Source: Couchioplanes azureus
GTDB taxonomy: Bacteria > Actinomycetota > Actinomycetes > Mycobacteriales > Micromonosporaceae
Direction of reading: 5' to 3'
Assembly (NCBI RefSeq): GCF_014648355.1
Contig: NZ_BMQY01000013.1
Coordinates: 1-64,000 of the forward strand
DNA length: 64,000 nt
This document shows, one piece after another, positions 23,899-36,740 of the stretch; positions within the stretch are counted from its first letter, which is position 1, and each line of letters opens with the position of its first letter. The notes under the pieces were generated by a model, which was not told the origin of the DNA, did no database searches, and saw nothing but the letters and a program-made list of their open reading frames with translations. The position numbers and the translations under genes are program-made.

Positions 23899-24313
23899 TC
23901 AGGTCCAGGCGGACAGCCAGGCGCGCAGCGGCTCGGGAGATGCTAGTTCAAGGTCGCCGTGGGGCTCCCAGCGAACCCACCCGGGGAGCAACAGACCTAA
24001 AATCACCAACGACTCGCCCTGGTCCCCGGCGAACTCGCACCACAAGCGCGGCCATCCCATCCAGTCCATGATTGAGGTGTCCGGACGCAGCCGCAGGGCG
24101 GCCGCCAGCGAAGTGAGAGCCTCCTTGTCAGTCAGGTCTGCGAGCGATGCCGGCGCAGCGCGGTCACGACGCTTCCGCGCCTGCTGGAGCGGGGTTTCCG
24201 CTCCGACACCGTACGCGTCGGGCCTTGCTCAGCACGCCCGGCAACGCTTGCACCAACTCCTGCACCAAGCCGAGAAATCGAGGTTGGCCGGATCTCCTGG
24301 CATGGGCCGCATG
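23899..24313 (-). pseudogene. degraded small gene with two compensating frame changes
   Basis: Read on the minus strand, an intact-looking C-terminal part covers TDKEALTSLAAALRLRPD, DWMGWPRLWCEFAGDQ, LVILGLLLPGWVRWEPHG and ends PLRAWLSAWT with TGA at 23899. Going upstream this frame meets a TGA near 24235. A sensible continuation (FLGLVQELVQALPGVLSKA) is found in another frame, and the first residues (MRPMPGDPANLDF) return to the original frame. One base lost and one gained would restore a protein of about 137 residues. The product is unrecognised. It is either a decayed gene or contains sequence errors. It lies convergent with parB. Confidence 0.5.
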
Positions 24314-24449
24314 CTCTCATGCCGATGTTAGTGCGTCTCTCGGCGTAGGCAAGAGTGCGCAGAACGCCAACTGACGGTAACGCGTAAGAGTCGGCGCCCT
24401 TATGGCGAAATGCAACTACAGGAACGTATCGTTCGGGCTGACGATAACG

Positions 24450-24526: not shown

Positions 24527-25612
24527 ATGACAACAGAGGCCGAGTTGAGGGATTGGCGGCAAGGGCAGATTGCCGCCGAACGCATGTGCGCGGCAATCCT
24601 GGCCATCGATAACTACGTTGATATCGATCCGCAGGCGCCTCTCGGTGGCCCCGACGGCAGGAAAGACATACTGGCGGTGAAGTCCGGGAAGCGGGTCGTC
24701 GTGGGCGTCTACTTTCCGCCCACGCATCCCGCGTTCGGCCAGATCAAGACGAAGTACACCGATGATCGTGTGGGAGTCCAAAAGTATGCGGCTGATCACT
24801 TCGTATTCATGGTAAATCAGCCGCTTACCGTAGCTGAGCGGGCAGTATTGCTTGCTGCAGGGAGTCAAGCCGATCAGATCTATCATCTTGAACGTCTGAG
24901 GGCCCACCTCGATTCGCCAGCGGGCTACGGTGTGCGTCTTGAGTTCCTTCGCCGCGGCATGACGATAGAGGAACAGGTTGCATTCTTCAGCACCCTGCGC
25001 GTAGGTGACTTGTCGGATACTCCGATGATGCAGCGCCTCGACGAGATTGCTGAACGCACACGATACATGATGTCGGCGATTGAAATGGCGACACAACCGT
25101 CATCTATCATCTCGCCGCTGGCTAGAACTGAACGCATTTCCGTAGCTCAGCTTGACGTGTCGATGCTGAAGCTTTTGCATCGAGCGGTCACGGCGGAGTC
25201 TGACATGCCTAGAGCTACCAGAGGGGAGCTCCGAACTGTACGGGTCTGGATCGGGGATGCTAGTGACCCAACTTTCATTCCACCCCCACCTGACGAAGTG
25301 CCCATTCTTCTCAATCAGCACTTGGCCTGGTGGCGACATGCATGTTTGGAAATGCGAACGGACGCTACGAGTGATGAATCGGTCGAGGTCCTCTCGCGAC
25401 TGCACTACGGCATCGTGCAGATCCACCCATTTCTTGATGGCAACGGGCGGGTCGCTCGTCACGTTACAGATGAAGCGGCAAGAGAGCTGTTGGGCGTCGG
25501 TGTGGACGTTGCACTCGTCCGAAATCAAAAGGCCTACTTCGCTGCGTTGAAGTCGGCGTCTACCGGCGACTTTTCGGAAATAATACAGCTTATGCGGGCC
25601 GCTCTTGAATGA
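24527..25612 (+). CDS. Fic-domain protein fused to a defence-associated N-terminal domain
   Basis: A 361-residue protein, ATG 24527. Residues 1-160 form an unnamed domain with PQAPLGGPDGRKDI (35-48), YFPPTHPAF and FFVNQ-like residues (here FVFMVNQPLTVAER), then YHLERLRAHLDSPAGYG. I know this arrangement from the N-termini of several actinobacterial defence-like proteins. Residues about 195-355 are a Fic domain: RTVRVWIGDASDPTFIPPPP, then the complete catalytic motif HPFLDGNGR (300-308) with Arg311. Fic enzymes usually transfer AMP to target proteins. I see no (S/T)xxxE(G/N) inhibitory helix, so control may come from the N-terminal domain. Base composition is visibly less GC-rich than neighbours, suggesting transfer. 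Confidence 0.85.
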   Translation: MTTEAELRDWRQGQIAAERMCAAILAIDNYVDIDPQAPLGGPDGRKDILAVKSGKRVVVGVYFPPTHPAFGQIKTKYTDDRVGVQKYAADHFVFMVNQPLTVAERAVLLAAGSQADQIYHLERLRAHLDSPAGYGVRLEFLRRGMTIEEQVAFFSTLRVGDLSDTPMMQRLDEIAERTRYMMSAIEMATQPSSIISPLARTERISVAQLDVSMLKLLHRAVTAESDMPRATRGELRTVRVWIGDASDPTFIPPPPDEVPILLNQHLAWWRHACLEMRTDATSDESVEVLSRLHYGIVQIHPFLDGNGRVARHVTDEAARELLGVGVDVALVRNQKAYFAALKSASTGDFSEIIQLMRAALE

Positions 25613-25691: not shown

Positions 25692-25736
25692 AGCACTAAC
25701 ATGCCGCTGATCGAGGGCTGCTCTGATGTTGGCACT
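25692..25736 (+). repeat. palindromic intergenic repeat, copy 1
   Basis: Left box AGCACTAACATGCCGC (25692-25707) and right box GATGTTGGCACT (25725-25736), largely reverse complementary (AACAT/ATGTT perfect). It lies 80 nt after the Fic stop. The left box matches copies 2 and 4 at GCACT-nn-CATGCCGC. Confidence 0.6.
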
Positions 25737-25971
25737 GCGCCGAACTTGTGCGACCGACCGTTGAAGTCGATCAACTAGGCTTTGTCACCCGTTCGGGCAC
25801 CGATCGGATTCGCCCTGCGCGGGTGAACGCTTTCGCGGACGCTGAGCCCTCGGATCCTGCCTACCTCCGGTCTCCCAGCTCCCACTGACGCCAAAATTGC
25901 GCGGCTTGCCCTCTTGCGGTGTTGTAGTTTTTGAGCTTCCAGCCGATGGCAACGTGGAGAGCGGAGGGTGC

Positions 25972-28116
25972 GTGCCTGTCAACCGCCGCGAGGCGCCGAC
26001 TAGCCGTCGTTCGGTGGGGTCCGCGCCAGGCCGGGAGTTTTTTCTCGGCGCATCCCCGATACCTGCCGACAACATGCCCCGGCCTGGGATGCGTCGGCTC
26101 AACCTGCCGACGGGCGCGGCGCTCGCCGACGTGCAGCGAAGGCTGATGACCCATGCCGCCGGCGCAGCGAAGCGAATTCCCGCCTTGCTACACAAGATCT
26201 CAGCGACCGCCACTGCCGCGGACCCGCTCACGCTATACGCCCAGCTTCACGTGTTAGCTGCCATGCACCGAGCGAGCCTTCCCGGGCCCGTCGCGTTCGG
26301 CATCGACGCGCTCGTGGAGTTCTACGGCGGCTTGGTTACCGCGATGCCGACGGACGACGTGGTCGACCGGCTGGGCGTCGAGGTCCATCCGTCGACTCTT
26401 TTCGAACTGGAGCGGCTGCTCCGCGCGTACGGCAACGCCGAAAATCTCGCCCACCAAGCTCGGGTGGTCCGTGAAGGCGGACTGGACTCGTTAACTCGGG
26501 CTCGGCATTTGCTCGAGTTTGAACGCCGGTTCGACCGAATGATGGGTTATCCGGCGCAGCTGCGGCCAATCTTCAGCGCCATTGTCGATCCGCTCGACGA
26601 AAAGACCATCAAGGTTCTAGGCTATGCGCTCAGTGACGCATTATCTGCTGCTGATGCATACAGCGAGGTGGTAGCCGAGCGGACGGCCGAGATCGTTGAA
26701 CGGTTCAACTCGGCCAGCGAACTGGCTACCATCCCGCAAGATCATCAAGCCCGGGTCCAGGCGTTGGCGATGCGGATGGGGGGCATGGCGTCCTCTTGTG
26801 CTGCTCAGATCGAGGACGACCTCCCCGCGCTGCTTGCCGAACGCGCCCGCATCCCCCAAGAGCGACTGACTGCGGTTCTGGAGGCGCTGGCAACCCCTCT
26901 GGGCAGTCAGCCCGAATTTAGTGCGCTCATGGACACGAACCGGTTGCGCCGATATCCAATCGTTCGCTTGCCGGACGGGCGGTATCTCTGGCCGAGGCCC
27001 GTCGATTTCATCCAAGAAGCGCTCGACTGGGCAGGAGAAGTCTGCCAGGCAGACCCGAACCTGCGCAAGTTTTTTGACAAACGCAGACAGGATGCATGCG
27101 AAGAGCTGACGCACCAAGCACTGTCCGACGTGTTCGGTACCAGCGATGTGCACAAGGGGTACACCTACCCGGCAGAGGGCCGACCCGACATCGATGTGCT
27201 GGTGGCGACCCCGGGCGCCACTATAGTCGCCGAGGTCAAGGGCGGGCGCTTCACCGAGCCGGCTCGCAGGGCGGCTCCCGACAGGATTCGAAAGAAGACC
27301 GGCGAATTCGTCGATAAAGCGCTCTCCCAGAACGCGCGCACTATTGCTCACCTGGAATCGGGGGCGGCCGGTCTGCAGGATCCGAAGCGGCGCCCCGTAA
27401 CAATCCCCAACGCCCCTAATGCGGTATCGATCATCGTCACGCTTGACCGAGTGGATCCATTTGCCACGCATCTGCCTGATGGGGGTAAACGATCGGGTGC
27501 CCCCGCTGCCGGAACCTGGCTCGTGACACTCGCCGATCTTCTGATGGTGACGGACATCTTGCGTCATCCGGCTGAATTTTATGCCTACGCCCACACCCGC
27601 GCGGCCATCAATCAGGCTGGCGGCCCGCTCATCTTCGTCGAGACGGATGCGGTCGGGGCATGGTGCGAGGGACGCATTGAGCCGGTTCACGTTGAACGTG
27701 GTCAAATCAACTTGCTCGGGACGACGTCGGAAATCATGAATGACTACTACACCCACATGCCCGATGACGGAGATCAGCCCGTTCGTCCTTCCACCGGTGT
27801 GCCGCGCGAAGTCCTGGCGGCGCTTGACGAAGTGCTCCGGGACCGGCCAGAGCATTGGAGGAACCTCTCAGTTTCCGTACTCGCGGCTCGTCCGGAAAAT
27901 TGGCAGAGTCTTCGAAAAGCGCTTCGGCAGCAAGCAGTTGGAGGCGCGGCAATCGCCACTACGCGACGCGCTCGAAAGCGCGCACGTCGAGCGTGCGGCG
28001 GAATCAAGGTTGGCCGGAATCTGACGGTGTTCCTGGCTACTGACCTACTTCCGCAGCAAGTGCTAAACGAAACCATCCTGGTAGTCCGCCCGAATATTGA
28101 CACCCCAGCGGTTTGA
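25972..28116 (+). CDS. large PD-(D/E)XK-type nuclease-like protein, putative defence gene
   Basis: A 714-residue protein. I prefer the GTG at 25972 because GGAGGG lies just upstream; an in-frame TTG at 25897 would add 25 unlikely residues. Residues 30-370 are mostly helical and unassigned. Around 375-500 is a restriction-endonuclease-like core: RPDIDVLV (Pro405, Asp406, Asp408) followed after 12 residues by AEVKGG (Glu421, Lys423), preceded by LTHQALSDVFG. These fit the D...ExK catalytic pattern. The C-terminal 200 residues include WLVTLADLLMVTDILRHPAEF, typical of long single-chain nuclease-like proteins. Three rare TTA codons (26254, 26491, 26641) suggest acquisition or bldA control. It lies between two palindromic repeats. 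Confidence 0.75.
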   Translation: MPVNRREAPTSRRSVGSAPGREFFLGASPIPADNMPRPGMRRLNLPTGAALADVQRRLMTHAAGAAKRIPALLHKISATATAADPLTLYAQLHVLAAMHRASLPGPVAFGIDALVEFYGGLVTAMPTDDVVDRLGVEVHPSTLFELERLLRAYGNAENLAHQARVVREGGLDSLTRARHLLEFERRFDRMMGYPAQLRPIFSAIVDPLDEKTIKVLGYALSDALSAADAYSEVVAERTAEIVERFNSASELATIPQDHQARVQALAMRMGGMASSCAAQIEDDLPALLAERARIPQERLTAVLEALATPLGSQPEFSALMDTNRLRRYPIVRLPDGRYLWPRPVDFIQEALDWAGEVCQADPNLRKFFDKRRQDACEELTHQALSDVFGTSDVHKGYTYPAEGRPDIDVLVATPGATIVAEVKGGRFTEPARRAAPDRIRKKTGEFVDKALSQNARTIAHLESGAAGLQDPKRRPVTIPNAPNAVSIIVTLDRVDPFATHLPDGGKRSGAPAAGTWLVTLADLLMVTDILRHPAEFYAYAHTRAAINQAGGPLIFVETDAVGAWCEGRIEPVHVERGQINLLGTTSEIMNDYYTHMPDDGDQPVRPSTGVPREVLAALDEVLRDRPEHWRNLSVSVLAARPENWQSLRKALRQQAVGGAAIATTRRARKRARRACGGIKVGRNLTVFLATDLLPQQVLNETILVVRPNIDTPAV

Positions 28117-28137: not shown

Positions 28138-28181
28138 GGCGCACTGTCATGCCGCGATCCGCGGGCCACGCAGCGTTACGG
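28138..28181 (+). repeat. palindromic intergenic repeat, copy 2
   Basis: Left box GGCGCACTGTCATGCCGC (28138-28155) and right box GCGGGCCACGCAGCGT (28161-28176), 22 nt after the nuclease stop. The left box plus following bases matches copy 6 at about 23 of 28 positions. The right box matches copy 4 and, in part, copy 5 (ACGCAGCGT). It lies between the 3' ends of convergent genes. Confidence 0.75.
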
Positions 28182-28237
28182 CCGCCGGGCGCCGACCGGT
28201 GCCCGCTCGTGCCGATGAGCAGACCTGCCGATCGGAC

Positions 28238-28633
28238 TCACTCTTGGGGGCCGTCTCCCGTTCGGGCCACGCCCTCGCGACTGAGATACCGAACCGGCTT
28301 GCCGAGCGACTCCGCGTAGGCAATCTCCCGTCGGGTTGACTCACCTACGTAGCCGCCGGGATCCACGATGTACACCTCGTCGGCCATGCGGATCTTTTGG
28401 AAGTGCACGCGGCCAAGCCGCCCTTTCAGGTCCGAGCTGTCGGCTGTCCAGTCGTAGTCCGGAAGGTCGGGGAGGGTGAACATTCCGAGGCTTATCACGA
28501 CGCAACCTTCCATCGTGAGCCGCTGGTTGACCTCCGCGAACTCAGCCTCAAACTTGGTCGAGCCGCAGAGCGTGATGACCTTCGCCTCGCCCTGGGCCGG
28601 CTGCGGCGCCTGCTGGTCCTGCATGAGGTTCAT
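28238..28633 (-). CDS. nucleoside 2-deoxyribosyltransferase-like protein
   Basis: A 131-residue protein from ATG 28633 (or ATG 28624); neither has a strong ribosome site. KVITLCGSTKFEAEF begins the Rossmann-like fold. VHFQKIRMADEVYIVDPGGYVGESTRREIAYAESLG is split over the second half, ending with KPVRYLSR. Motifs ADEVYIVD and GESTRREI are characteristic of the nucleoside 2-deoxyribosyltransferase / DUF4406-like group, which binds nucleotides or related glycosides. Some relatives serve in phage defence or nucleotide scavenging. It converges on the nuclease gene across repeat copy 2 and diverges from the DUF4279 gene. Confidence 0.75.
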   Translation of the reverse strand: MNLMQDQQAPQPAQGEAKVITLCGSTKFEAEFAEVNQRLTMEGCVVISLGMFTLPDLPDYDWTADSSDLKGRLGRVHFQKIRMADEVYIVDPGGYVGESTRREIAYAESLGKPVRYLSREGVARTGDGPQE

Positions 28634-28851
28634 GATCGCTGAACGGCAGGACGAGTCTCTCGCCGCCCCTGGACGTCCGCTCTTGCCGCTGTCCGTGCGC
28701 GCTGGCTGCTGCATCAGGGATCACGCTGCGTTCCCTCTCTGTGGCCGCCGGCGCAAGCTCGGCGAGTTGTGCGCGTCATCAGCGACCATCGCCAGGGTCG
28801 GGCAAAACCGGCGCGACGTGGCGGCAGGCCCTGCACTACGGTCGGTGCCCG

Positions 28852-29370
28852 ATGCCAGAAGAAGAGCATGTCACCCATACTTACGCCACCTGCGTGCAGC
28901 GGGCGTATCTGTACTTGGTCCGAGACGTCGACGTTGGCGAGCCGCCGTACGAGCTCGACGAGCTACGGCAGATGGCGTTCGACCCCGACGACGTCACCCG
29001 CCTGGTGGGGCTGGAGCCCACCAGGGCCTGGCAGCGTGGTGACCCGCATCCCTACGCGCCACTACCGCGTCGATTCAGCCGCTGGGCCTTTGAGTTGGCC
29101 GAAGTACGGACGTACGTGACCGAGGAAGTTGTCAGCCAACTGCTGGACGCGATCGAGCCTTATGCCGCTGGCATCGCTGACGCGTGTAGCACCCTAGGAA
29201 TGCGGGCCGGCGTCGCGGTGGTCATTACGATGAGCGGGGGCCGCGACACCGTTGCCGGTGGCCTCCACGTTTCCACCGCCTCCATCACGTACATAGCGAG
29301 GACTCTCCAACGGTTGGCCGGCCTTGGCTTGTCTGTAGATCACGACCAGTACGTTCTCCTGCCTGACTAG
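28852..29370 (+). CDS. DUF4279 family protein (immunity-like)
   Basis: A 172-residue protein, start ATG 28852. The N-terminal strand YLYLVRD is followed by the DUF4279 signature DDVTRLVGLEPTRAWQRGD and RRFSRWAFEL, then an alpha/beta C-terminal half (AGVAVVITMSGG, GGLHVSTASITYIARTL, GLSVDHDQYV). DUF4279 proteins are small cytosolic proteins of unknown function, often near polymorphic-toxin immunity genes. Here it forms a divergent pair with the deoxyribosyltransferase-like gene and is followed after about 20 nt by repeat copy 3. Confidence 0.75.
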   Translation: MPEEEHVTHTYATCVQRAYLYLVRDVDVGEPPYELDELRQMAFDPDDVTRLVGLEPTRAWQRGDPHPYAPLPRRFSRWAFELAEVRTYVTEEVVSQLLDAIEPYAAGIADACSTLGMRAGVAVVITMSGGRDTVAGGLHVSTASITYIARTLQRLAGLGLSVDHDQYVLLPD

Positions 29371-29390: not shown

Positions 29391-29446
29391 GGCGCACTCA
29401 ACTGCCGCCTCCCGCGCGCTCCAAAGCGTTCGGTTGACACTCGTGT
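29391..29446 (+). repeat. palindromic intergenic repeat, copy 3
   Basis: Left box GGCGCACTCAACTGCCGCC (29391-29409). The right part GGTTGACACTCGTG (29432-29445) is the near reverse complement of CACTCAAC. An inner CGCT/AGCG pair with a CCAA loop lies between. It separates the convergent DUF4279 and DUF2716 genes. Confidence 0.65.
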
Positions 29447-29474: not shown

Positions 29475-30455
29475 TTACCGGTTGCTGCGTTTGATGGGAA
29501 GCCAGCTCGTGAGTGTCGGTACCAGGGCGGACACCAGGGGCTCGCCGAAGACGCAGAGTGTCTGCTCCCAGGGGTGTCCGAAGGTGCCAGTGTTCATGTC
29601 CTCGGTGAGGAAGATGTAGTAGTCGCCGTTCGGGAAGACCGTCGTGGGCCATTGCTGATGTGGTTGGCAGGCGAACCGGTGGGGCCAAAACCGGTAGGAC
29701 TGGTGCTGCCAATCAAGTACGACGAGGCCGGTGTCGGCGTCCAGTACACGTGTCAGCGCGGCCAGGGTGAGGCTGTCGACGGCGGCCGCGCCGGAAGCGA
29801 ACTGTGCATGACCGCCGGCGAAGATGGGTTCGAGGTCGATGGTGACCGACGGTCCTGGTTCTTCGATTGCGGGCCAGGACCGCATGCCGGGCCGGAACGC
29901 GAAGCGCTGGTTGAAGGACGCCCAGTACGGGTCATCGGCATCCATGGGAATCGGTACCCATGCAGGCGGAGCTGGGGGCGGGATTTCGCCCAGGTGGTCG
30001 GTGGTCCCATGGACGATGCCGGCCAGGCGTTCCTGGAGGCCGCGCAGCACGGTGATGGTGTCATGGTCGGTGAAGCCGGTATCAGCCGCCCAGTCGCGTG
30101 CCCAACCCAGGGTCTCGCTCGCGAACGCCAGCTCCGTGGCAAGGAGAAGGCGGCGGCAGTCGCGACGCGACATGGAACGCGCCGTGTCGAGGATGCCCCC
30201 GAGCCGGCCAACGTCCGAGCGCAGCTCACGGCGATCGGTGTAGCCCAGGAGGTGAACGACCGTGTCCCGGTCGCCTTCCGGGCGCTCCCACTCCATGATG
30301 CCGAGCCGAAGAAGCTCTCGTTCGACCGGCGTGAGCTGGGTCAGATCAACCTGCATTTCCAAGTCCACCGGCTGATCATGCAGGAACCAGCACCCAACCG
30401 CGTGCTCATTTGCCACACCGTGCGGTGGCAGCCTCGGACGATTCCGCATGGTCAC
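29475..30455 (-). CDS. DUF2716 family protein (immunity-like)
   Basis: A 326-residue protein with a GTG at 30455 or ATG at 30449. Residues about 25-165 are a helical N-terminal region (LTPVERELLRLGIMEWERP, LLLATELAFASETLGW). Residues about 175-326 match the DUF2716 pattern: DPYWASFNQRFAF, a central TRVLDADTGLVVLDWQHQ, then FPNGDYYIFLTEDMNTGTFGHPWEQTLCVFGE split across the end. DUF2716 members occur in immunity-gene clusters of actinobacteria and Bacillus; no biochemical function is known. The N-terminal extension is longer than usual for the family. It is divergent from the gene at 30533. Confidence 0.8.
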   Translation of the reverse strand: MTMRNRPRLPPHGVANEHAVGCWFLHDQPVDLEMQVDLTQLTPVERELLRLGIMEWERPEGDRDTVVHLLGYTDRRELRSDVGRLGGILDTARSMSRRDCRRLLLATELAFASETLGWARDWAADTGFTDHDTITVLRGLQERLAGIVHGTTDHLGEIPPPAPPAWVPIPMDADDPYWASFNQRFAFRPGMRSWPAIEEPGPSVTIDLEPIFAGGHAQFASGAAAVDSLTLAALTRVLDADTGLVVLDWQHQSYRFWPHRFACQPHQQWPTTVFPNGDYYIFLTEDMNTGTFGHPWEQTLCVFGEPLVSALVPTLTSWLPIKRSNR

Positions 30456-30532
30456 CGATGCCGTACGGTCCCGACGAGTGGATCTCCCGCCATGGCTGTG
30501 CCCGTCGATGGCTGCTCGGGCACGATGTTTTC

Positions 30533-30952
30533 ATGCCGCCGGAAGCTACCGCCTACGTCCCCAACGAGCTGTTGAGCCGTCTCGTCGGCTACCGCCTTTA
30601 CTCGGTGGAGTTCGTCATGGACTACGTCCAACTACGCTTCGACGGGCCAACGGAAGACATGCCTGTTCTCAACTGCGAGGTATTGCCCGTCGTGGAGACA
30701 CCGACAGGCTCGATAGGTCCCGGGCAACTGGGCTGGGCCGACGCGCTGCGCGCACTCATCCCGGGTCAGGTAGTCGCGACAGCAGAGGAAACGGGCCGCG
30801 GCCTTCGGATTGAGTTCGACCAAGGGACGGTCTGCTTGCATCCCTCCATCGACGACGTGCCCGGCCCAGAGATCGCCATGCTGACCGGATTCAAGGACAG
30901 GCGTTGGATGTGCTGGCGCCCCGGAGAAGAGTCGTTCGAAGACCTTGTCTGA
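30533..30952 (+). CDS. hypothetical protein (immunity-like)
   Basis: A 139-residue cytosolic protein. I start it at ATG 30533, although the frame is open back to 30410. Phrases include NELLSRLVGYRLYSVEFVMDYVQLRF, LNCEVLPVVETPTG and RIEFDQGTVCLHPS, giving an alpha+beta fold of the kind seen in small immunity proteins. No family recognised. Its stop codon (30950-30952) overlaps repeat copy 4. Confidence 0.65.
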   Translation: MPPEATAYVPNELLSRLVGYRLYSVEFVMDYVQLRFDGPTEDMPVLNCEVLPVVETPTGSIGPGQLGWADALRALIPGQVVATAEETGRGLRIEFDQGTVCLHPSIDDVPGPEIAMLTGFKDRRWMCWRPGEESFEDLV

Positions 30953-31012
30953 CGCACTGTCATGCCGCTTGGGGCGTGCTGGCGTTCAGCAAGGGCGGCA
31001 ACGCAGCGTGAA
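30951..31012 (+). repeat. palindromic intergenic repeat, copy 4
   Basis: Left box GACGCACTGTCATGCCGC (30951-30968), overlapping the upstream stop codon, and right box GCGGCAACGCAGCGTG (30995-31010), its imperfect reverse complement. An inner TGCTG (30977-30981) / CAGCA (30987-30991) pair gives a two-stem fold like that of integron attC sites. The recombinase gene starts 5 nt after the right box. Confidence 0.8.
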
Positions 31013-31014
31013 GC

Positions 31015-31932
31015 ATGGCCGCTTCTTCGCTCTCGAAGTCGGAAACCCTGTTCTCTGATCATGTGGTTGTGCAGGCGGCGGTCGCCGCCTATCTCGGCCG
31101 ATACCGAGGCCAGACCCGCCTGCACGCCGAGTCGGATCTGCGGGTCTTCCTGCACTGGTGTGCCCGTCAGGACCTTGACGTCTTGGCGGCGGTGCGGGCG
31201 GACATCGAACGGTACGTGCGGTGGCTGCAGGACGAGGGCTGCTATCAACCTTCGACGGTCTCGCGCCGGTTGTCGGTCGTGGTGGTGTTTTATCGCGTCT
31301 GCGTGATCGACCAGATCCTGCCGCACCCGCCAGCCGACTACGTACGCCGTCCTCGGGTGCCGGCGGAGTCGCCCACGCTGGGCCTCGGGCATCTGCAGTT
31401 CGAGGCGCTGATCACTACCGCCCGACTGTCGACCAACATCAACGACTTCGCGCTGGTGGCGCTACTCGGGCTTCTCGGGCTACGAATCTTCGAGGCTTGC
31501 GGGCTGAATATCAGCGACCTCGGCGAAGAACAAGGCCACCGCGTCCTACGGGTGCGCGGCAAGGGCGGCACGGTCGTGCTCGTCCCGCTGCCACCCGCGG
31601 TCGCCCGTGCCGTCGAGCGCGCGGTCGATGAGCGCGAGAGCGGGCCGCTCCTGCGCAATACCCTCGGTCGGCGCCTGGACCGGCACGCCGCGACCCGCCG
31701 CCTCAAGCGACTGGCTGCCGGTGCGGGAATCAGGATGCCGCGGATGCACCCGCACATGCTGCGGCACACCTTCGTCACCACCATGCTCGATGCCGGCGTC
31801 AGTCTGCGCGATGTCCAGATCGCCGCCCGCCACGCCGACCCACGCACCACCATGCGCTACGACCGCGCCCGCCGGAACCTCGACCGGCACCCCAACTACA
31901 TCCTCGCCGCCTACATGGCCTCCGGAACATGA
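31015..31932 (+). CDS. tyrosine recombinase (XerC/integrase family)
   Basis: A 305-residue site-specific recombinase. The N-terminal SAM-like DNA-binding domain covers about 20-105 (VAAYLGRYRGQTRLHAESDLR). The catalytic domain has all expected residues: Arg157 in GLLGLRIFEA, Lys183 in RGKGG, His247 and Arg250 in HMLRHTF, His273 in ARHADP and nucleophile Tyr282 in MRYDRARR. It should cut and rejoin DNA at short palindromic core sites. It lacks the IntI-specific insert. The ATG at 31015 has only a weak ribosome site and sits at the end of repeat copy 4. It is the obvious candidate to move the repeat-bounded genes, but this is untested. Confidence 0.9.
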   Translation: MAASSLSKSETLFSDHVVVQAAVAAYLGRYRGQTRLHAESDLRVFLHWCARQDLDVLAAVRADIERYVRWLQDEGCYQPSTVSRRLSVVVVFYRVCVIDQILPHPPADYVRRPRVPAESPTLGLGHLQFEALITTARLSTNINDFALVALLGLLGLRIFEACGLNISDLGEEQGHRVLRVRGKGGTVVLVPLPPAVARAVERAVDERESGPLLRNTLGRRLDRHAATRRLKRLAAGAGIRMPRMHPHMLRHTFVTTMLDAGVSLRDVQIAARHADPRTTMRYDRARRNLDRHPNYILAAYMASGT

Positions 31933-32184
31933 GCCCGACGCGCGACTTTGCCGATGTGCGGCTATCCGGTGATGCGAAGCGAGCATGGCGGTGGCGGAGC
32001 TGCGACTCGACCAACCCTGGTCCGTCGGGACTTGGTGCCTGCTCGCGCGCACGAATCCGCATGAGCCCAGCAGCGCCCGCTATCAGTCGACACAACGGCG
32101 GGCGGCGCTCAGGCCAGCCCGAAACCGTCGATCACGTCGACCCTTACACGTGAGCAACCACAAGAACGCGCCGCCAGAAACTGG

Positions 32185-33432
32185 TCAGGTGGACCGAGCC
32201 GCGTCCCCGGGCTGCGTTGTGGACCGGCCACCGTAGGTGACTCGTCGCACCAGCCGCTCGAAGGGACCCCTGTGCCCCGACCAGCGCATCCAGTCAGCGA
32301 GCAGCACCGTGCCTGCCCAGGTCGCCGTCGCAACCACGGCAGTACCAGCCACGGACAGAACGTCGGAGAGGTCCAGAAGTGCGGGCGTGAAGATCATTGC
32401 CCACACCAGCGACTGCATCAGGTAACACGTCATCGAGCGCTGACCGGTGGCGGCGATCGCCGCGGCTACCCGATTCACCGGACGCCGCAGCCGGACGGCG
32501 AGCAACGTCAACAGCGCGGCGTACCCCACACCGCCCAGCACCCCGGTAGCGGCGTGCAATGCACCAATCCAGGAGAAAGCTCCCAGCTCCGGCGGCGTGA
32601 CGATGCCGGCCAGTACCAGCGAGACAGGCTGAGCACCCAGCACCGCTCCGACGAGCCCTGCCACCGCCGCCACCTGCAGACTTCGCCGGTGATCGCCAGG
32701 ACGTTCCAGCAGCCGGCGGCGACCGGCCCAGAGTCCCACCGCGAACGGGCAGAGGAACATCAGCGGGCCGAACAACGGCGTAATAAGTACGGAACCGACC
32801 CGGTCTGTGATCATGTCAGCCAGATTCGTCGGCAGCTTCGTCGCGTCCGGACCTTCACCAGTCATGAACATCGAGGCGCCGCCGAGCAGCGCGTACAGAG
32901 CGAAGGAGCCGAACGCGACCAGCAGCAGCGACCTGTCCTTCCAGCGGATCATCCAAACGCCCACGATCAGCAATACGCCGTACGCGGCCAGGATGTCGCC
33001 CTCGAAGAAGAGCAGCGCGTCGACCGTTCCCACTCCGATGAGAACCGTGCAGCGCCGCCAAAGGAGCCGGGTTACCCACCGCGGACCGGCCGACTCATGG
33101 CGGCGGGCGAGCTGCGCGACGCCGTATCCGAAAAGCAGCCCGAACATCGGGAAGGCCCGGCCGTCAACGAAGGTCGTCAGGGTCCAGATGACAGCCCGGT
33201 CCACCGGCGAGCCGTCCTGGGGGTACCCGCCCAGCACCGTCGCCCCGCGCAGGAACAAGTGCGTATTGGCTAACGCAATGAACAGCAGCATCGCGCCCCG
33301 CGCCAGATCCAGCCCCAAAACCCGGTCTCTCGACGCAACAGGACCTTCCGTCACGCTAACTTCCGGGTCCATGCTCGCCTTCAGCATGCCAGCCGTCCCA
33401 CCATCCGGCGCTCTCCCGCTCGTCATTTCCAC
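32185..33432 (-). CDS. DUF418 family membrane protein
   Basis: A 415-residue integral membrane protein with 8-10 hydrophobic segments. It opens with RVLGLDLARGAMLLFIALAN, followed by FVDGRAFPMFGLLFGYGVAQL, both characteristic of DUF418 proteins, and contains the C-terminal family region with TGQRSMTCYLMQSLVW. The family includes acyltransferase-like membrane proteins of unknown substrate. The first ~35 residues look non-conserved, so an internal start is possible. It is oriented opposite to the recombinase. Its relation to the repeats is unclear; it may be an ordinary passenger gene. Confidence 0.85.
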   Translation of the reverse strand: MEMTSGRAPDGGTAGMLKASMDPEVSVTEGPVASRDRVLGLDLARGAMLLFIALANTHLFLRGATVLGGYPQDGSPVDRAVIWTLTTFVDGRAFPMFGLLFGYGVAQLARRHESAGPRWVTRLLWRRCTVLIGVGTVDALLFFEGDILAAYGVLLIVGVWMIRWKDRSLLLVAFGSFALYALLGGASMFMTGEGPDATKLPTNLADMITDRVGSVLITPLFGPLMFLCPFAVGLWAGRRRLLERPGDHRRSLQVAAVAGLVGAVLGAQPVSLVLAGIVTPPELGAFSWIGALHAATGVLGGVGYAALLTLLAVRLRRPVNRVAAAIAATGQRSMTCYLMQSLVWAMIFTPALLDLSDVLSVAGTAVVATATWAGTVLLADWMRWSGHRGPFERLVRRVTYGGRSTTQPGDAARST

Positions 33433-34278: not shown

Positions 34279-34438
34279 TCAACGCCGCATCCGCTCATGC
34301 CGCTATCTGCGCTCGGGCCGACCGCCGCCGTCGCGACCGGTGGTCGGCCGTCGCGGATCGGCGTCCTGTCGCGCCACAAGCAGTTCATCGCCGGTCCGGG
34401 CCGAGAGCTCGTTGTCCTGGTTCTGTCAGGATCTGCTC

Positions 34439-34732
34439 ATGGATGGGACCTGGAGCTTCACAATCGAGGATGCGTTCCACATCGCCGGGCGAGGCACTGC
34501 AGTCATAGGCCGAGCTGAAGGGACAATCCCGGCGGTCGGTTCAGTCGCCTTGTGTGCTCGAGGAGCGCACCGCGTCGTTGAGCGGGCAAGCGTGCAATTA
34601 CTCGACCGCCTGCGCGATGGTCAACGTGAGGGTGTGCCCGCGCTCCTTCTCGATGGGGTGGGCATGGACCAGCTTACTGCAGGGACGATCGTCCACTCTG
34701 TCGATCGTCCATGCCCGCCAACGACGCACTGA
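34439..34732 (+). CDS. small protein resembling elongation-factor domain II
   Basis: A 97-residue protein, ATG 34439. Its first half, FTIEDAFHIAGRGTAVIGRA, follows the pattern of EF-Tu/SelB domain II (D-x-F-x-I-x-GRGT-x-x-x-GR), a beta-barrel that contacts tRNA or ribosome. The remainder (VGSVALCARGAHRVVERASV, GVGMDQLTAGTIVHSV) continues the barrel. No GTPase domain is present. Such isolated barrels appear as short orphan genes in actinobacteria near toxin/immunity loci; it might shield or mimic a translation factor (speculative). The stop lies inside the left box of repeat copy 5. Confidence 0.65.
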   Translation: MDGTWSFTIEDAFHIAGRGTAVIGRAEGTIPAVGSVALCARGAHRVVERASVQLLDRLRDGQREGVPALLLDGVGMDQLTAGTIVHSVDRPCPPTTH

Positions 34733-34811
34733 TCTGCCGCCGTCCGCCCGCGGCGACCGCCGCGAAGCTGTCACGCAGCGTGACGCACGCTCGTGTCGAT
34801 GACAGTGCACG
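34723..34811 (+). repeat. palindromic intergenic repeat, copy 5
   Basis: Left box GACGCACTGATCTGCCGC (34723-34740) and an inverted copy GATGACAGTGCACG (34798-34811). Inside lie CGCGGC/GCCGCG (34749-34764) and GTCACG/CGTGAC (34770-34784), plus the ACGCAGCGT word shared with copies 2 and 4. It lies between convergent genes. Confidence 0.75.
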
Positions 34812-35259: not shown

Positions 35260-35562
35260 TCGCCCCGACGCCGACCCCAATATGACTCTTCGGGCAGCTA
35301 TAGCCAGCGATTTTGACGGAAGCAGACAGGCATGCTCGGCAGATGCCGACCCGACGACACGTGCATTGTTCTGCCGCGAGTCGCGCGCTGGCCGCTCGGG
35401 CAACGGTGCGGGTTCGGTCCCAGTTCCGTGGATCTGCCGGCATTCCAGGATCTCGAACGCCCAGTGGGTGATCCGCCGATTCCTACGACATCGCGCATCG
35501 CCGTCAGCCGGTGCACGATCATGGCATAGGGCGCCGCCAGGCGCGGGGAGGTGCAAAGTTCC

Positions 35563-36662: not shown

Positions 36663-36740
36663 GGCGCACTGATCTGCCGCGATCCGCAGGTCCAGCGGGG
36701 CGGATGGGCCGCCGCTGAGGGCGCTGCGACAGTGCTCGCC
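36663..36740 (+). repeat. palindromic intergenic repeat, copy 6
   Basis: Left box GGCGCACTGATCTGCCGC (36663-36680) and inverted right box GCGACAGTGCTCGCC (36726-36740), whose reverse complement contains GCACTGTCGC. An inner ATCCGC (36682-36687) / GCGGAT (36700-36705) pair is perfect. It begins 24 nt after the upstream stop. Confidence 0.75.

Follow-up and report, generated by a model that had tools for sequence, protein, structure and literature searches.

A putative gene-cassette array with dif-like core sites and a linked Xer-like tyrosine recombinase in Couchioplanes azureus and other Actinobacteria

A 64,000-nt stretch of the Couchioplanes azureus genome (contig NZ_BMQY01000013.1, positions 1 to 64,000; hereafter the window) contains a series of short repeats with a tyrosine recombinase gene among them. 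This raises the question of whether the recombinase acts on the repeats, and whether the two together move gene cassettes. Integrons are the textbook route by which bacteria collect and reorder single genes. No complete integron has been found in Actinobacteria (PMC9024848).

Core sites and the recombinase gene in the window

A sequence-only reading had described the repeat as a palindrome with a left and a right box. Exact copies of both boxes lie upstream of the recombinase gene (left box GCACTGTCATGCCGC at 30954–30968; right box in Table 1), but the conserved unit is not the whole 60-bp palindrome, and the repeat was redefined as a 26-bp dif-like core, CGYMCKSWYM-TGCCGM-KRWSMGKRCG. The core consists of a 10-bp arm, a 6-bp centre (TGCCGC or TGCCGA) and an inverted 10-bp arm, and the dyad symmetry of the arms is maximal at a 6-bp spacer. 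The left arm was followed by TGCCGC in 277 cases, TGCCGA in 70, TGCCGT in 4 and TGCCGG in 3. The window holds 12 cores, every one on the + strand, between 24310 and 36690 (Table 1). In many cores one arm is weak, including the right arm of the core at 30953. The right box is kept only among Micromonosporaceae homologues of the recombinase. Double sites, in which a TGCCGC core is followed by a TGCCGA core, often 16–24 or 55–82 nt away and with no gene between them, were also found (28140–28225 in the window). Several loci (L186 in genome G177, L187 in genome G194, L119, L135 and L144) carry tandem gene-less units of 29–34 bp, each a core with a short spacer; these reach about 25 cores in 19 kb and resemble empty cassettes.

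Table 1. Core sites, boxes and genes of the array, in window coordinates
Position	Strand	Feature	Basis
24310–24335	+	Core, TGCCGA	Core pattern
24527–25612	+	Fic/DOC-family gene between cores	Pfam
25692–25717	+	Core, TGCCGC (weaker)	Core pattern
25897–28116	+	739-aa ORF between cores; Pfam match absent	
28140–28165	+	Core, TGCCGC	Core pattern
28200–28225	+	Core, TGCCGA; double site with 28140	Core pattern
28238–28714	-	158-aa ORF, overlaps with the core at 28674; in L174, its homologous DNA is rejoined to a different site	
28674–28699	+	Core, TGCCGC	Core pattern
28741–29370	+	DUF4279 gene; other neighbours in other genomes	Pfam
29393–29418	+	Core, TGCCGC; unusual left arm CGCACTCAAC, of which 8 nt, CACTCAAC, are common to L161	
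29475–30455	-	DUF2716 gene; occurs separately in other genomes	Pfam
30448–30952	+	Gene C, ending at the core beside the recombinase; present in three other genomes	
30953–30978	+	Core, TGCCGC (centre 30963–30968); 5′ border of recombinase unit	
30997–31011	+	Right box GGCAACGCAGCGTGA, exact; lineage-specific conserved element just 5′ of the recombinase ATG	
31015–31932	+	Xer-like tyrosine recombinase, 305 aa	Pfam Phage_integrase; catalytic residues; XerD/XerC-like profile match
31939–31964	+	Core, TGCCGA (centre 31949–31954); 3′ border of recombinase unit	
32185–33432	-	Gene for a DUF418 membrane protein, after the recombinase unit and before the next cores	
34288–34313	+	Core, TGCCGC	Core pattern
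34725–34750	+	Core, TGCCGC	Core pattern
35362–35387	+	Core, TGCCGC (weaker)	Core pattern
36665–36690	+	Core, TGCCGC	Core pattern

The recombinase generated a hit on Phage_integrase in Pfam (E=3e-27, 95.9 bits) and carries a SAM-like N-domain at its N-terminus. The complete catalytic set named in the sequence-only reading (R157, K183, H247, R250, H273 and Y282) is present; each residue is kept in 90% or more of 46 homologues, and K183, H247 and H273 are invariant. The sequence-only reading had called the gene the only recombinase of the array; no other complete member of its family lies in the window, and the nearest copies elsewhere in the genome are fragments. It had also been placed at the edge of a repeat, 5 nt after the right box; the box does adjoin the ATG, but the gap is 3 nt. 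The protein scored 116–122 bits against Xer models, under their cut-offs of 279–335, and 52 bits against the integron integrase model TIGR02249 in NCBIfam (cut-off 265), where only its C-terminal part was aligned. Membership in IntI was rejected on this score, in agreement with the earlier view of the enzyme. E. coli XerD was its best solved relative, the match to IntI4 covered about 60 residues, and a weak match to phage-type Gp33 (5vfz) was obtained. With a core-binding domain, a catalytic domain carrying RKHRH-Y and no sign of an arm-binding domain, it has the features of a simple tyrosine recombinase. An AlphaFold model of low quality (pLDDT 66) adds nothing to the case.

The host genome has a separate Xer-like gene, 44% identical to the linked recombinase, next to a WhiG-family sigma gene; its place suggests to us that this is the host XerC. 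A conserved single-copy gene of this kind, about 40–46% identical to the linked recombinase, is found across the family. Given this separate gene and the Xer scores below cut-off, the linked recombinase is not an ortholog of the conserved chromosomal Xer gene. Broken recombinase copies lie elsewhere in the C. azureus genome (contig C3, 506451–507330; C7, 200897–201409; C13, 122041–122666; C12, 109163; loci L039–L042), at least two of them with a TGCCGC core directly upstream, and the block left of the C13 core is joined to a different right half on C5 (L041 compared with L045). A prophage origin was considered and dropped, as the patterns used to search viral contigs gave no confirmed relative; among the phage relatives listed, the best reach about 48% identity across 93% of the recombinase. 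Spread by plasmids was likewise rejected, plasmid-borne relatives being at most 41% identical. Scanning the window for Rfam families and tRNA genes gave no hits.

Linkage of the core to the recombinase in other genomes

Whether homologues of the recombinase occur together with the repeat elsewhere was examined by a contig scan, which yielded 79 actinobacterial loci whose recombinases share at least 64% identity with it; the genera include Micromonospora, Actinoplanes, Nocardioides, Nocardia, Kribbella and Tessaracoccus. They do: about 50 nt 5′ of the start codon, most relatives have a core (a box that ends with TGCCGC), and the sequence left of this core is unrelated between loci. At some loci, chiefly outside Micromonosporaceae, the upstream box was not recognisable. 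On the other side, TGCCGA follows the recombinase stop codon by 10–33 nt in 44 of 74 homologues, compared with 3.3% of random 60-mers. The recombinase gene is thus enclosed by a pair of cores, TGCCGC 5′ and TGCCGA 3′ (31949 in the window), and homology between recombinase loci ends near TGCCGC on one side and near TGCCGA on the other. In homologue flanks of up to 10 kb, 215 left-box motifs lay on the recombinase strand and 22 on the opposite strand (reversed control, 23 and 29). Twelve further loci were taken from whole genomes, in part from alternative assemblies of strains that the set already contained; they gave 90 motifs on the recombinase strand and none on the opposite strand. The linkage between recombinase and repeat is therefore beyond chance.

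The pattern does not hold everywhere: L179, one of these twelve loci, has a complete recombinase with no further core within 10 kb at the threshold used, and genome G025 has a complete recombinase and no site matching the core pattern. At L105 (QEUR01000004.1, labelled as an Acidobacteria MAG), the recombinase and the block following it share about 93% DNA identity with the Ornithinimicrobium locus L114, which reflects either wrong binning or distant transfer.

Arrays also exist apart from the recombinase. Locus L189 (genome G106) has 20 co-oriented cores and no recombinase copy nearby, and L185 (genome G301) is likewise a co-oriented core array in a genome without the linked recombinase; the best matches in the genomes of these orphan arrays were weak, 32–35% identical tyrosine recombinases. 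Some genomes have recombinase remnants in place of the complete gene. Such arrays may resemble integron arrays after loss of the integrase, or another enzyme may serve them. The sequence-only reading had named repeats found widely without the recombinase as evidence against a link, and this was borne out in part, in that such arrays exist, although Micromonosporaceae genomes with the recombinase or its remnants contain about twice as many sites as those without (mean 8.5 and 4.1; background 1.6; p=2.6e-5).

The cores could instead be substrates of the host chromosomal XerC/XerD, as in the pdif modules of Acinetobacter plasmids, the linked recombinase being a passenger. The dif-like geometry of the core, the orphan arrays with their weak recombinase matches and the conserved Xer-like gene of the family are consistent with this. 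However, sites stand at background in the other families of the order taken together (0.97 per genome compared with 1.08 in the control), even though XerC/XerD are housekeeping genes. The number of sites follows the linked recombinase, and most homologues have a core close on both sides of the recombinase gene and cores co-oriented with it. We consider host Xer action unlikely. The simplest reading of these sequences is that the linked recombinase would be the enzyme acting on the cores, given its place inside a core pair, the co-orientation and the co-occurrence.

Genes between cores and exchange at the core

Intervals of 250–4000 nt between cores (n=195) had a median of 1076 nt, in keeping with an array of cassettes bounded by recombination sites. 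The 93 cassette ORFs tested included methyltransferases, glyoxalases, hydrolases, SMI1/KNR4, immunity proteins, DinB-like proteins and several DUFs, with no dominant family; defence-related matches, such as GajA-like ATPases, were scattered. Gene orientation was mixed (104 and 82 of the 186 best ORFs).

The DUF4279 gene, the DUF2716 gene and gene C were each met singly in other genomes with different neighbours, and junctions at a core were seen in L160, L161, L164 and L174. In L160, gene C is followed by a degenerate centre and then by sequence resembling the right half of the 28140 core of the window, and the copy in L164 continues beyond the core into a different right half. The DUF4279 gene of L161 retains the unusual left arm of its core, and the right half is new. 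In six further pairs of loci, the right half is common and the sequence to its left differs, with the break within 10 nt of the left border of TGCCGC; homology begins exactly at this border in 4 of the 6. Agreement over 8 nt of the left arm was 7.17 of 8 in 23 pairs with the same left and different right blocks (partly non-independent, several coming from short tandem units), compared with 4.25 in pairs sharing only the right block and 3.81 in random pairs. Left arms thus appear mostly to move with the left cassette, which places the exchange in or at TGCCGC. Close copies of gene C, however, differ in the 8-nt left arm, which simple half-site exchange does not explain and which counts against the reading preferred below. 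Taken together, the recurrence of window genes with other neighbours and the breaks in homology at the left border of TGCCGC indicate past site-specific reshuffling, and sequence comparison strongly supports recombination at the core sites.

The unit of about 1 kb running from TGCCGC through the recombinase to TGCCGA could also be an IS-like mobile element, with the gene-less units as non-autonomous derivatives and the genes in between as ordinary island genes. The limits of recombinase homology near TGCCGC and TGCCGA fit such an element, as do the recombinase fragments scattered over the host genome and the existence of gene-less units of 29–34 and 55–82 bp. Random insertions should, however, be less uniformly co-oriented, the up to 20 co-oriented cores of L189 have no recombinase copy nearby, and the genes between cores occur elsewhere singly, joined by cores to different neighbours. 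This explanation seems to us quite unlikely.

Folding tests and comparison with known systems

The sequence-only reading had offered the folded, single-stranded palindrome as a possible substrate, and this found no support. The repeat copy of the window folded no better than its shuffles (z=-0.37), and cores with 30–90 nt showed no folding excess over dinucleotide shuffles or random windows (z about 0). Double sites had a small excess (mean z -0.88 for compact and -0.38 for long sites; random, 0.0), and their arms were barely more complementary than random arms (5.1 compared with 4.8 of 10). The outer arms of a cassette gave no clear signal of attC-like complementarity (5.29 vs 5.06 vs 4.84 random). 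As cores fold no better than shuffles, an attC-like single-strand mechanism is not supported; by the z-scores, a folded site was rejected for single cores and is a weak candidate for double sites. An integron-type system on folded attC-like sites is thus highly improbable: double sites do contain four boxes, the outer arms being complementary in their consensus, and show, when compact, the slight folding excess, but most cores are single and show none, the arm complementarity is near random, and the enzyme is not an IntI.

These comparisons give good support to a cassette array that has been reshuffled at dif-like cores, and the array is probably a mobile one, served by a dedicated Xer-like recombinase acting on double-stranded cores. 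The recombinase would recombine two such cores, presumably cutting at the borders of the 6-bp centre and swapping the halves, so that segments of one or a few genes would be excised, inserted and reordered. TGCCGC and TGCCGA centres may form separate compatibility classes, and cassettes may pass through circles. A cassette system unrelated to class integrons, as first suggested from the window, remains the best reading in view of the non-IntI enzyme, the co-occurrence and the reshuffled, core-bounded cassettes. On balance, we slightly favour a counterpart of the integron that arose independently and is common in Actinobacteria, where integrons scarcely occur, with a dedicated Xer-derived recombinase, double-stranded dif-like cores and two compatibility classes of centre. 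A literature search, with subscription papers and preprints outside its scope, returned no description of such a system.

As in integrons, a tyrosine recombinase gene lies beside a recombination site, most cassettes hold one gene, their functions are mixed and largely unknown, and orphan arrays lack the integrase (cf. CALIN). Unlike in integrons, the enzyme is Xer-like and far under the IntI cut-off, the site is a dif-like 10-6-10 core in place of a fold-back attC, cassette genes occur on either strand, and the recombinase gene sits inside the array between two cores. Integron-like in its working, the system failed two tested integron features and is therefore not classed as an integron. In pdif systems, modules are separated by dif-like sites. 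The array shares with Xer/dif and pdif an Xer-like enzyme, a 6-bp centre flanked by two inverted arms and site-separated modules, but differs in its separate linked recombinase alongside the host Xer-like gene, its conserved TGCCGC/TGCCGA centre and its long runs of co-oriented cores in the chromosome. Simple tyrosine recombinases such as IntBrujita and RitA/B/C likewise combine a catalytic and a core-binding domain (305 aa here), but they integrate single phages or transposons (PMC8138268), whereas gene-cassette arrays are found here and no phage context was seen. The integrase of Arthrobacter phage Karkharias (L175) is about 48% identical to the recombinase, and no TGCCGC core lies beside its gene.

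In many soil actinobacteria, exchangeable genes stand in series, split by a short site and accompanied by a recombinase; such series look like integrons but have another enzyme and another signal. The core pattern gives a direct means of finding such arrays. If the proposed reading is true, Actinobacteria would possess a second, unrelated cassette machine, which would account for the movement of part of their accessory gene pool, including methyltransferase, immunity-protein, SMI1/KNR4, glyoxalase and defence-like ATPase genes. It would also mean that gene-capture platforms evolved convergently from Xer recombinases, and would provide a new recombination tool.
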